DNA from: an uncultured Bacteroidia bacterium
GTDB lineage: Bacteria; Bacteroidota; Bacteroidia; Bacteroidales; UBA932
Direction of reading: 5' to 3'
Length of the DNA: 64,000 bases
NCBI GenBank assembly: GCA_902789245.1
Contig: CADAND010000012.1
Span: 62,001-126,000 of the forward strand
Shown in pieces: positions 15,853 to 62,947 of the stretch. The number at the start of each line of letters is the position of its first letter. The stretch's first letter is position 1. The notes below the pieces were generated by a model that worked only from the letters and a program-made list of their open reading frames with translations, searched no databases and was not told where the DNA came from. The translations under genes and the position numbers were made by a program.

Positions 15853-15893
15853 CACCCACGCCTTGGTGGTGGAATGGTAGACACGAGGGACTT

Positions 15894-16618
15894 TGGCTAG
15901 CTCTTTGAAATAATTATTTGGAAAACACGAGAGTAAAGCTTAACTTTACAATATGAGTAAAGCCAGCTATACAATCGAAGATGTAAGACAAGCAGTTGCG
16001 GATAATAAATCTGTTGCTGGAGTATTACGGCAGTTAGGTCTTAGGCCAATAGGTGGGAATTATCGGACAATTAACAGGTTAATCGCTGATAACAAGTTGG
16101 ACATTTCTCATTTTACGGGTCAGGGCTGGAATGTCGGGCTTGCTTTTAAACCTAAGGCTGGTCTCACAGATCAAGATATCTTCGTCGAGAATTCTTCGTA
16201 TAAATGTTCCTGGAGACTTCGGGAACATTATAAAAAGACGACAGGGATTACCAGATGTGAGAAATGCGGTCTTGAGTTTTGGCAAGGCGAGCAAATCCCC
16301 TTGGAGATTCATCATATCAATGGGATTAACACGGATAACCGGCTCGATAATCTTCAGTTACTTTGCCCGAACTGCCATGCTTTGACAAATAATTATCGAG
16401 GAAGAGCAAGATTGAGTGCGCGTTCCGAAAGGAGCGATGTAGAATGTCGTAAATTCAAGGAAGCCTTAACAGGTCATGCTGATGGTAATCTTGAGCCAAG
16501 CCTCCGGAAGGAGGAAGGTGCAGAGACTAGACACGACACACCTAAAGATCCTGGATCCACGGTGAAGGAATAGTCCGGACCACAAACAGAGACTGGTGGC
16601 GAAAGCCATAGTGGCAAG
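15894..16618 (+). ncRNA. Group I intron in tRNA-Leu(UAA), carrying an HNH gene
   Basis: 725 nt from the base after U34 to a terminal G (16618, the expected omega-G). Core elements are visible in order: P-like AAATTCAAGGAAGCC (16451-16465), Q-like AATCTTGAGCC (16487-16497), a hairpin CCTCC-GGAA-GGAGG (16501-16514), R-like GTGCAGAGACTAGACAC (16518-16534) and S-like AAGGAATAGTCCGG (16565-16578). P7 forms between GACTA (16525-16529) and TAGTC (16571-16575). A GAAA-capped hairpin (about 16595-16607) suits P9. The core resembles the cyanobacterial tRNA-Leu introns (IC3 by inference). I could not settle the P1 pairing. A hairpin GTAAAG/CTTTAC lies just before the HNH start. Confidence 0.9.
15953..16573 (+). 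CDS. Intron-encoded HNH homing endonuclease
   Basis: 206 aa. The N-terminal region (about 1-65) has a helix-turn-helix-like motif VAGVLRQLGLRPIGGNYRT, common in HNH proteins. The HNH domain (about 100-145) has two zinc-binding Cys pairs (CEKCG and LCPNCH) and the catalytic core IHHINGINTDNRLDNL, so it looks intact. The last 40 or so residues are translated from the intron's conserved core, and the stop codon TAG (16571-16573) is part of the 3' strand of P7. No ribosome-binding site is evident. Base composition is clearly more AT-rich than the neighbours, which suggests acquisition from outside. The likely role is homing of the intron into intronless tRNA-Leu genes. Confidence 0.88.
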   Translation: MSKASYTIEDVRQAVADNKSVAGVLRQLGLRPIGGNYRTINRLIADNKLDISHFTGQGWNVGLAFKPKAGLTDQDIFVENSSYKCSWRLREHYKKTTGITRCEKCGLEFWQGEQIPLEIHHINGINTDNRLDNLQLLCPNCHALTNNYRGRARLSARSERSDVECRKFKEALTGHADGNLEPSLRKEEGAETRHDTPKDPGSTVKE

Positions 16619-16671
16619 AAAATCCCTTGGCCCGAAACGGCCGTGCGGGTTCGAGTCCCGCCCGAGGCACG

Positions 16672-52171: not shown

Positions 52172-52175
52172 CATG

Positions 52176-52258
52176 TGCGGTAGGTGAGACTCGAACTCAC
52201 ACAGGCCAATGCCCACTACCCCCTCAAAGTAGCGTGTCTACCATTTCACCACTACCGC
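52176..52258 (-). tRNA. trnL(GAG): tRNA-Leu(GAG)
   Basis: Read on the minus strand, 83 nt. Acceptor GCGGTAG pairs with CTACCGC, discriminator A (CCA not encoded), anticodon stem CTACT/GGTAG with loop TTGAGGG giving anticodon GAG, a long class II variable arm (TGGGCATTGGCCTG) and a T arm with GAGTTCGAGTCTC. It has no intron, unlike the UAA isoacceptor at 15860. Confidence 0.93.
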
Positions 52259-61924: not shown

Positions 61925-62947
61925 ATGAGCAAGAAAACCGTTCTCGTGTCCGGCGGAGCCGGATTCATCGGCAGCCACGTGACCGTGGAGCTGACCCAGG
62001 CCGGCTATGACGTCGTCATCGCCGACAACTTCTCCAACTGCGATGAGACCAACTACAGGGGCGTCTGCGCCATCCTCGGCAAGGAGCTGCCCCTGATCCC
62101 GATGGATTTCTGCCAACGGAGCTCCGTCGAGGAGCTGTTCAGCAAGTATCCCATCGATGCGGTCATCCATTTCGCCGCCTTCAAGGCGGTGGGCGAGTCG
62201 GTCTCCGAGCCGCTCAAGTATTATCGCAACAACCTGGTGTCCTTCATGAACATCCTGGATGTCGCCCGCGAGAAGGGCTGCAACGTCCTTTTCTCTTCGT
62301 CTGCGACGGTCTATGGCCAGACGGACCAGCTCCCCGTGACGGAGCAGAGCCCGCGCCAGCCGGCGGAATCGCCCTACGGCAACACCAAGACGATGTGCGA
62401 GGACATCCTCCGCGACAGCGTGAAGGCCTATCCGGGCGTGCGTGGTATCGCGCTGCGTTATTTCAACCCCATCGGCGCCCACCCGTCCGCACTCATCGGC
62501 GAGCTGCCGCGCGGCGTCCCCAACAACCTGGTGCCGTTCATCACCCAGACCGCCATCGGCAAGCGTGAGTGCCTGTCGGTGTTCGGCAACGACTACCCGA
62601 CGCCTGACGGAACCTGCCTGCGCGACTTCATCGACATCGTCGATCTCGCGAAGGCGCACGTCTGCGCGGTCACGCGCATGTGCGAGGGGAAGATGAAGCA
62701 GGCGTACGAGATCTTCAACGTCGGCACCGGCCGTCCGCTCTCCGTGCTGGAGCTGATCACCGCCTTCGAGAAGGTCAACGGCGTCAAGCTGAACTGGAAA
62801 TACGCCCCGCGCCGCGCAGGCGACGTCGTGGCCATCTGGGCCGATCCGACCCTCGCCGAGCAGGAGCTCGGCTGGAAGGCGGAGCGCAGCATCGAGGACA
62901 CCCTCGCCGCCGCCTGGGCCTGGGAAAAGCGTCTGGCTGGCAAATAG
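61925..62947 (+). CDS. galE: UDP-glucose 4-epimerase
   Basis: 340 aa from the ATG at 61925; the in-frame ATG at 61907 is possible and would overlap the CYTH stop. NAD-binding GGAGFIGSHVTVEL, the catalytic Ser-Tyr-Lys region SSSATVYGQ and SPYGNTKTMCE, and RYFNPIGAHPSALIGE, typical of GalE. Interconverts UDP-glucose and UDP-galactose for glycan synthesis. Confidence 0.93.
   Translation: MSKKTVLVSGGAGFIGSHVTVELTQAGYDVVIADNFSNCDETNYRGVCAILGKELPLIPMDFCQRSSVEELFSKYPIDAVIHFAAFKAVGESVSEPLKYYRNNLVSFMNILDVAREKGCNVLFSSSATVYGQTDQLPVTEQSPRQPAESPYGNTKTMCEDILRDSVKAYPGVRGIALRYFNPIGAHPSALIGELPRGVPNNLVPFITQTAIGKRECLSVFGNDYPTPDGTCLRDFIDIVDLAKAHVCAVTRMCEGKMKQAYEIFNVGTGRPLSVLELITAFEKVNGVKLNWKYAPRRAGDVVAIWADPTLAEQELGWKAERSIEDTLAAAWAWEKRLAGK

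Follow-up and report, generated by a model that had tools for sequence, protein, structure and literature searches.

The window analysed here is a 64,000-nt stretch (positions 62,001 to 126,000 of contig CADAND010000012.1, GenBank assembly GCA_902789245.1) from an uncultured member of the Bacteroidales. It holds a tRNA-Leu(UAA) gene that is split between U34 and A35 by a group I intron, and the intron carries a reading frame for an HNH endonuclease. With introns allowed, ARAGORN called tRNA-Leu(taa) at 15860-16670, annotated i(35,725), a 725-nt intron after nucleotide 34; by default, with no intron option, it called nothing at 15860-16669. The exact junctions are confirmed by an empty site, since the 85-nt intronless tRNA of a sister genome (G593, locus L276) equals both window exons joined; the upstream flank of that locus is 81% identical to the window over 900 nt. 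The gene is laid out as follows.

15860-15893, plus strand: exon 1 of tRNA-Leu(UAA), last base U34 (ARAGORN; joined exons identical to the G593 empty-site tRNA)
15894-16618, plus strand: group I intron, 725 nt, terminal G at 16618 (Rfam match, ARAGORN, helix covariation)
16619-16669, plus strand: exon 2, from A35 to discriminator A73 at 16669 (ARAGORN, sequence)

The genome is a draft of 2.28 Mb in 28 contigs, 95.4% complete, with 43 other tRNA genes that include Leu genes for CAG, CAA, GAG and UAG. Since none of these 43 is a second tRNA-Leu(UAA), and no intronless anticodon arm of the same sequence was found in the draft, the intron-split copy is the only tRNA-Leu(UAA) gene found there. A tRNA that is probably indispensable to many genomes of this Bacteroidales genus appears to depend on splicing by a ribozyme. 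Codons UUA number 1 in 2549 in six neighbouring host genes, against 5 in 207 in the HNH frame. An ordinary intronless tRNA-Leu(GAG) lies elsewhere in the window (52175-52258, minus strand).

A local E-value scan with the Rfam model Intron_gpI matched 16376-16599 at 41.1 bits (E 6.3e-9). This is below the gathering score of 50, so a whole-window Rfam scan at that cut-off does not report the intron. Within the host family the cut-off was passed by 9 of the 14 genomes with an Rfam match, which is 9 of the 12 introns at the same site. Two standard annotation steps overlook this tRNA: neither default ARAGORN nor Rfam at its cut-off reports it. The elements of the ribozyme are listed here with their evidence; cells are counts of helix pairing scored across 86 distinct tRNA-Leu intron cores, for which slid controls gave 0.02-0.66, and ORF denotes an open reading frame.

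15890-15893, plus strand: 5' strand of P1, exon bases ACUU, pairing with 16414-16417 by inspection; U15893 forms a U.G wobble at the 5' splice site
16412-16419, plus strand: internal guide TTGAGTGC, whose GAGU at 16414-16417 pairs with the exon (sequence; same element in ORF-less relatives)
16421-16436, plus strand: P2 hairpin with a GAAA loop (by inspection)
16445-16450, plus strand: 5' strand of P3, partner 16533-16538 (514/516 cells paired; double changes in 6/6 pairs)
16454-16495, plus strand: P4-P5 arm, P4 being 16454-16459 with 16490-16495 (507/516 cells paired) and P5 16463-16465 with 16484-16486 (211/258)
16501-16514, plus strand: P6 hairpin (389/403 cells paired; double changes in 5/5 pairs)
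16525-16529, plus strand: 5' strand of P7 (R), partner 16571-16575 (420/420 cells paired; double changes in one pair)
16539-16564, plus strand: P8, 16539-16542 with 16561-16564 (340/340 cells paired; double changes in 3/4 pairs)
16571-16575, plus strand: 3' strand of P7 (S), its first three bases being the HNH stop codon (pairing counts, reading frame)
16597-16608, plus strand: P9 hairpin with a GAAA loop (by inspection)

P3, P4, P6 and P8 all show double (compensatory) changes with 97-100% of cells paired; P5 is weaker at 82%. The P3-P8 core has the P7 guanosine-site helix and the P3/P7 pseudoknot of a group I intron. To these are added the P1 helix with U.G at the 5' splice site and the terminal G, both seen by inspection with junctions taken from the empty site. 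Minimum-energy folds of raw intron pieces, a method blind to the pseudoknot, were no better than those of shuffles (z -0.12, -0.81). The feature is real, and by its sequence it is built like a mobile group I intron.

The original prediction, made from the letters of the window alone, had placed a group I intron between U34 and A35 of a tRNA-Leu(UAA) at 15860-16669; the intron-aware ARAGORN call and the G593 empty site bear this out. It had also named the P7 pairing of 16525-16529 with 16571-16575, a GNRA-capped hairpin and a terminal G, and these stand, with every P7 cell paired, a GAAA loop and G16618. Its further remark, that the essential Leu(UAA) isoacceptor depends on splicing unless another copy exists, agrees with the tRNA content of the draft. 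A covariance score below threshold was to count against it: the match is significant by E-value, and its bit score does fall short of the cut-off. The mobile HNH gene that it proposed is taken up next, with these features.

15894-16411, plus strand: L1 insertion, 518 nt, with the greater part of the HNH gene; 40.9% GC, the window as a whole having 61.7% (comparison with ORF-less relatives; GC scan)
15901-15920, plus strand: CTCTTTGAAATAATTATTTG, a conserved block in the first part of the L1 insertion, almost the same in the 18 Bacteroidales HNH introns compared
15941-15948, plus strand: TAACTTTA, 4 nt before the start codon and one base off TAnnTTTG; a suggestive promoter candidate
15953-16573, plus strand: HNH endonuclease reading frame, 206 amino acids; stop TAG at 16571-16573, in P7
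16256-16381, plus strand: HNH domain, Pfam PF01844, residues 102-143 (profile match)

No other 500-nt stretch of the window is as poor in GC as the L1 insertion. In ORF-less relatives (L299, L300, L301, L303 and L315) the guide TTGAGTGC lies 7-9 nt after the exon; because in the window it sits downstream of the HNH domain, the gene is seen to occupy loop L1. Its last 50 or so codons read on through the ribozyme core, across P2, P3, P4, P5 and P6 into P7. TAnnTTTG is the -7 promoter element of Bacteroidetes, and a promoter of this type inside L1 is only suggestive.

Residues 2-162 of the HNH protein match the PHROG family phrog_10822 (E 2.3e-41), which together with the PF01844 domain supports the mobile HNH gene of the original prediction. 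C102, H121, N133, C138, C141 and H142 are all invariant among 22 aligned proteins, which have 21 invariant residues in total and the core HFTGQGW in common; a domain with the catalytic and zinc-binding residues of a phrog_10822 homing endonuclease is therefore present. Among Bacteroidales copies the HNH part has a median nonsynonymous divergence (dN) of 0.26 and a mostly saturated synonymous divergence (dS), so that the median dN/dS of 0.126 comes from the 6 of 153 pairs with usable dS. These values point to strong constraint, because of which full-length copies are probably active. A fold search with the predicted structure (mean predicted local distance difference test, pLDDT, 77.6; predicted template modelling score, pTM, 0.46) gave no PDB match at E <= 0.001, and a profile search of the protein gave a weak HNH match only, an IscB at E 0.024; neither revealed more than the HNH fold. 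In the phage copies L060, L061, L063, L064 and L113 the frame continues through the core into P8, where it encodes a zinc finger and a VSDNAVRKWC-like segment, and the same C-terminal part is found in free-standing phage copies such as L069 and L074; the Bacteroidales copies that we read are without it. The idea that the core-coded C-terminal part is a conserved protein domain was dropped, because copies differ in whether their stop codon lies in P6 or in P7.

We surveyed genomes related to the host for the intron. The Rfam model matched 14 of 199 genomes of the host family, 12 of them reading as tRNA-Leu(UAA) introns (L038 and L042 cut by contig ends); L043 and L044 were rejected as tRNA introns, being apparent chance matches in coding DNA. 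In the genus, blastn with the intron core found 39 of 101 genomes, one over 50 nt only, while the intronless anticodon arm was found in 38, and the two states coincide in 3 (Fisher p 5e-7). In an order sample blastn detected a close copy of the core in 1 of 393 genomes, the window's own, and a broader core pattern found 2 of 395 in a phylum sample. The order surveys undercount, as RF00028 scored about five candidates per genome and blastn at most two, and blastn missed the divergent L059. Divergent tRNA-Leu(UAA) introns are L059 (another family of the order), L244 (a Saprospiraceae metagenome-assembled genome, MAG) and L368 (G955); apart from these, the genome samples showed the intron in a single Bacteroidales family. 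Named records with the intron at the same site include numerous Bacteroidales MAGs, whose samples come from rumen, omasum, faeces and the like. A further group I intron, L058 (G450 C127:21047-21244), lies in another Bacteroidales family; the tRNA that it interrupts, read as Ile(UAU), has a second tRNA as neighbour, and the locus may belong to a phage tRNA cluster.

At the window's own locus, with upstream flanks 74-85% identical, we found an HNH intron in G600 (L302), ORF-less introns in G641, G672, G648 and G678, and no intron in G593. The other intron cores there, including those of the ORF-less sisters, are 92-98% identical to the core of the window. The upstream flanks of L298-L303 and L276 align and no downstream flank compared does, as if the tRNA were a point of integration or recombination. 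Among 78 distinct Bacteroidales introns the L1 insertion is full-length (at least 490 nt) in 20, truncated in 11 and absent in 47; these are the introns with both ends present, counted from 95 loci after removal of 14 duplicates, 2 loci that lack exon 1 and 1 whose core could not be read. Read from the alignments, this series of full, truncated and missing insertions, with the empty site, is the pattern of a homing cycle.

At two Bacteroidales loci, L217 and L233, the tRNA-Leu intron is without an ORF, and an HNH match starts 153 and 81 nt, respectively, behind the tRNA. At L217 (7700-8000) a second copy of the exon end (GAGGGACTT) precedes the HNH gene, and at L233 (5617-6110) a copy of the 3' end of the tRNA (CCGAGGCAC) comes after it.

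Scanning viral contigs with the HNH protein gave 32 loci, 22 of them distinct. Seven of the 22 lie in tRNA-Leu(UAA) introns (L060, L061, L063, L065 and L072 by ARAGORN, L064 and L079 by eye). For the free-standing genes the nearest tRNA is Leu in 13 of 15, always within 95 nt, where 6.2 would be expected if the nearest tRNA were a random tRNA of the same stretch; at L081, one of the remaining two, a tRNA-Leu(UAA) overlaps the gene end and was excluded by the counting rule. A second scan by the family motif, of which we took the best 80 of 570 or more relatives, added 75 loci, 68 distinct, although some of its intron loci are on contigs already in the core-pattern scan described below, and L451, L452 and L454 look like near copies. 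In this set of the best 80, at least 18 of the 68 distinct loci lie inside tRNA-Leu(UAA) introns, with a few "inside intron" assignments that bear other tRNA labels being doubtful. Another 36 are free-standing, 29 of them with a tRNA within 300 nt, and that nearest tRNA is Leu, mostly UAA, in 24 of the 29 (expected 14.6, P 2e-5); when clustered at 80% identity, tRNA-Leu is nearest in 23 of 27 clusters. In ten database phages examined, the HNH gene touches or overlaps tRNA-Leu in GodonK, Maleficent, cr111_1 (crAss-like), S-CRM01 and D69, and in the 595-kb phage LR756511 it is part of a tRNA-Leu(UAA) intron, where it occupies P6 and not L1.

The scan by core pattern found 55 viral stretches. In 27 of these ARAGORN reads a tRNA-Leu(UAA) with an intron of about 200, 690 or 970 nt, many of which encode an HNH protein; others interrupt different tRNA genes or protein genes. 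In phage loci L383 and L387, where the tRNA-Leu(UAA) intron has no ORF, an HNH match follows the tRNA at a distance of 225 and 21 nt, respectively, that of L387 on the other strand. Given such loci with the HNH gene beside the intron, and its P6 placement in LR756511, the same enzyme family has by these arrangements met the tRNA-Leu intron more than once.

Several viral stretches have features of their own. The HNH gene in the tRNA-Leu intron of L079 (3001-3504) has two in-frame TAG codons, suggesting a recoded phage. L072, a 244-kb viral contig full of tRNA genes, has a permuted tmRNA at 2387-2642 (RF04321, 69.3 bits). In many of the 26 viral stretches L369-L394 a related group I core lies in what appears to be a single conserved gene for a protein, possibly of the capsid. 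A PHROG scan of ten neighbour proteins of L113 and L116 gave nuclease and methyltransferase families along with unknown ones, but no structural gene of a phage, so the "phage" label of these two contigs rests on the sorting of the viral collection.

Trees were built from 116 cores (143 columns), and approximately unbiased (AU) tests were run on a Leu-only set of 86 rows and 146 columns. In the core tree 30 Bacteroidales introns form one clade (99/97) that joins with five phage introns (98/91), although most phage cores had been found by a pattern derived from the window, which favours close ones. With further phage introns they share one side of a strongly supported branch (100/99), while L059, also from Bacteroidales, is placed among phage introns with a long branch of its own. 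Cyanobacterial introns have a clade of their own, with 10 of 11 rows (99/99) in this tree and 10 rows (100/100) in the Leu-only set. L351, from the cyanobacterial class sample (G715 C90), has a tRNA-Leu intron that groups with betaproteobacterial introns and not with cyanobacterial ones. A clade of Bacteroidales and Alphaproteobacteria was rejected (AU p 0.005). In a tree of 52 HNH proteins, the 21 from Bacteroidales form one clade (100/100), beside which (91/95) stand the phage intron proteins L113 and L140 and the free-standing phage protein L067. Among the 57 proteobacterial and 31 cyanobacterial loci compared, none has an HNH relative.

The original prediction had described the insertion site as that of cyanobacteria and plastids, and had proposed to compare the core with their introns. 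The position is indeed the same, U34/A35, but it is not peculiar to them: 29 of the 35 alphaproteobacterial loci among the matches listed are also tRNA-Leu(UAA) introns, the intron apparently being common in that class, and use of the site by cyanobacteria alone was rejected as an idea. As for the comparison, the best tree separates the Bacteroidales introns from the cyanobacterial ones, and the AU test does not reject a clade of both (p 0.338). Of the horizontal movement that it had expected, signs are seen; the carrier that the evidence suggests is a phage, not a cyanobacterium. Phages are suggested as spreaders of this kind of intron because HNH relatives occur in or beside tRNA-Leu genes in so many phage sequences.

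The intron, its site, the placement in L1, the family ties, the empty site and the decay series can be read from sequence; splicing, cleavage and a direction of transfer we infer from these data in the following way. The precursor tRNA would fold a group I (IC3-like) ribozyme that is excised between U34 and A35 and rejoins the anticodon loop, and self-splicing would be the sole source of tRNA-Leu(UAA) here. The HNH homing endonuclease encoded in L1 probably cleaves tRNA-Leu(UAA) genes that have no intron, at the anticodon arm or close to it, and repair of the cut gene would copy the intron in. The endonuclease family, tied to tRNA-Leu, resides in phages, either as a separate gene next to tRNA-Leu or within introns of tRNA-Leu(UAA), and the composite would have arisen when such an endonuclease paired with an intron already at its target, by collaborative homing. 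Transfer from phages, or exchange with them, may then have brought it to one Bacteroidales family, where a cycle of gain, decay and loss would have followed. We regard this account as a whole, of a splicing intron with an L1 homing endonuclease that arose by collaborative homing, moved with phages and now cycles, as probable. A wider proposal is put forward tentatively, with odds slightly short of even: that the anticodon site of tRNA-Leu(UAA) is an active homing target of phages, that one HNH family entered introns there at least twice, in different loops, and brought the composite into Bacteroidales, and that repeated phage-borne invasion, and not descent only, may explain the intron in Alphaproteobacteria and perhaps Cyanobacteria.

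Several results weigh against this account. The Rfam score of the window intron is under the gathering score, and strict matches to the promoter motif are few, 5 of 18 in Bacteroidales introns and 5 of 19 in phages (1.3 expected), a weak result. The tie to tRNA-Leu has exceptions: in the second set five loci have another tRNA nearest, seven have no tRNA within 300 nt and six have no tRNA in the locus; in the first set L091 lies beside another tRNA or none, as do, among the database phages, the HNH relatives of Francesca, LCK69, Enterococcus phage 113 and Dulem virus 42; and the expected values of both sets are high, some loci holding tRNA-Leu only. No HNH relative was found in 30 intronless Bacteroidales loci, searched about 1.5 kb to each side, and G622 (whose intron match is the one over 50 nt only), G631 and G664 match both states of the gene, by contamination or as two copies. 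Among the trees, neither the joint clade of Bacteroidales and cyanobacteria nor a single clade of all phage introns (AU p 0.184) is rejected, and a single clade of all intron-encoded HNH proteins is rejected only marginally (p 0.046).

The first of these AU results, with the shared insertion position, is what speaks for a transfer from the cyanobacterial or plastid trnL intron, or close co-descent with it, the HNH gene being added later and phages having obtained it from bacteria. We think this quite unlikely, as the best trees set the cyanobacterial introns apart and join Bacteroidales with phage introns, the closest HNH proteins are those of phages, and none of the cyanobacterial and proteobacterial loci compared has an HNH relative; old vertical inheritance within Bacteroidota is also unlike the sparse occurrence in the order and phylum samples. 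The unrejected single phage clade leaves the nesting of Bacteroidales within phage introns indecisive, and so allows the direction to be reversed, with the HNH intron evolving in Bacteroidales and phages acquiring it with host tRNA genes. Phage HNH proteins are, however, more diverse and partly free-standing, while the 21 of Bacteroidales form one tight clade; the low GC of the L1 insertion in its GC-rich window and the confinement to one family, L059, L244 and L368 aside, likewise make this direction unlikely.

It is also improbable, in our judgement, that the HNH frame is an inactive passenger and that the intron moves only when the entire tRNA locus recombines. The 11 truncated copies, the differing ends of the frame (stop in P6 or P7) and the sister genomes that align upstream and not downstream would all suit such a passenger, whereas full-length copies keep the catalytic residues under what appears to be strong constraint, although dS is saturated. 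That the whole is an artefact of assembly or annotation, or a pseudogene, with the real tRNA-Leu(UAA) missing from an incomplete draft in 28 contigs, is scarcely credible: the core recurs in 39 of 101 genomes of the genus, MAGs from other studies have the same arrangement, the exons are intact and the core has compensatory changes. The account that we prefer remains that of a phage-linked homing intron.

A close known relative in plan is the cyanobacterial and plastid trnL intron (IC3), which is generally believed to be ancient (PMC4476775). It has the same gene, U34/A35 position, core plan and placement of the guide GAG (L297, L223, L328-L356), and it differs in its separate clade in the best trees, in cores that are mostly longer among those compared, and in the lack of an HNH relative in the 31 loci. 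The age and mobility of the trnL intron become testable, with a candidate endonuclease family for the site available to assay. A 2014 review lists bacterial tRNA group I introns for Cyanobacteria and for Alpha- and Betaproteobacteria (PMC4033280), and among the matches listed in the open-licence literature we found no report of tRNA-Leu group I introns in Bacteroidota. Proteobacterial tRNA introns (Ile, Arg, Leu and others) have a similar core and insertion in the anticodon loop, at the same site in alphaproteobacterial Leu(UAA); they differ in having no HNH relative in the 57 loci and in the rejected clade with Bacteroidales. The endonuclease of the cyanobacterial tRNA-fMet intron was reportedly found by Bonocora and Shub in 2001 to be specific for the tRNA anticodon region; it concerns another tRNA and reportedly belongs to another family, and the family of the window also stands free beside tRNA-Leu. 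With phrog_10822 the window protein shares its residues 2-162 and the HFTGQGW core, and it differs from several phage copies that keep the C-terminal zinc-finger and VSDNAVRKWC part.

Phage tRNA introns have a short record. According to another 2014 review, all phage introns observed up to then were in protein-coding genes, although tRNA genes are numerous in phages (PMC3984707). Lak megaphages later yielded tRNA genes with introns, which are called enigmatic, Tyr and Thr tRNAs being named (PMC6784885); those here likewise interrupt phage tRNA genes, and they differ in being group I, in tRNA-Leu(UAA) and often with an HNH gene. Beyond one more intron, what we describe is a set of states around one tRNA gene and an enzyme family tied to tRNA-Leu. 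Collaborative or trans homing is summarised, for mobE and the nrdB intron, in PMC2988022, which also lists SegB, from the T4 tRNA region, as a free-standing endonuclease that belongs to a different family. Phage HNH genes inside tRNA-Leu(UAA) introns or free-standing beside tRNA-Leu are what collaborative homing predicts, and the HNH gene is, with the exceptions given, encoded in or beside its supposed target. As with mobE and nrdB, all the forms are seen: a free-standing endonuclease at an intronless target (L067 and others), an endonuclease-less intron at the target (L383, L387, L217, L233) and the composite (the window, L060-L066). The differences are that the target here is a tRNA gene and that two ribozyme loops were entered, L1 and P6; one gene offers natural examples of the steps of collaborative homing: enzyme by the empty tRNA, intron alone, enzyme beside it, and enzyme inside it.

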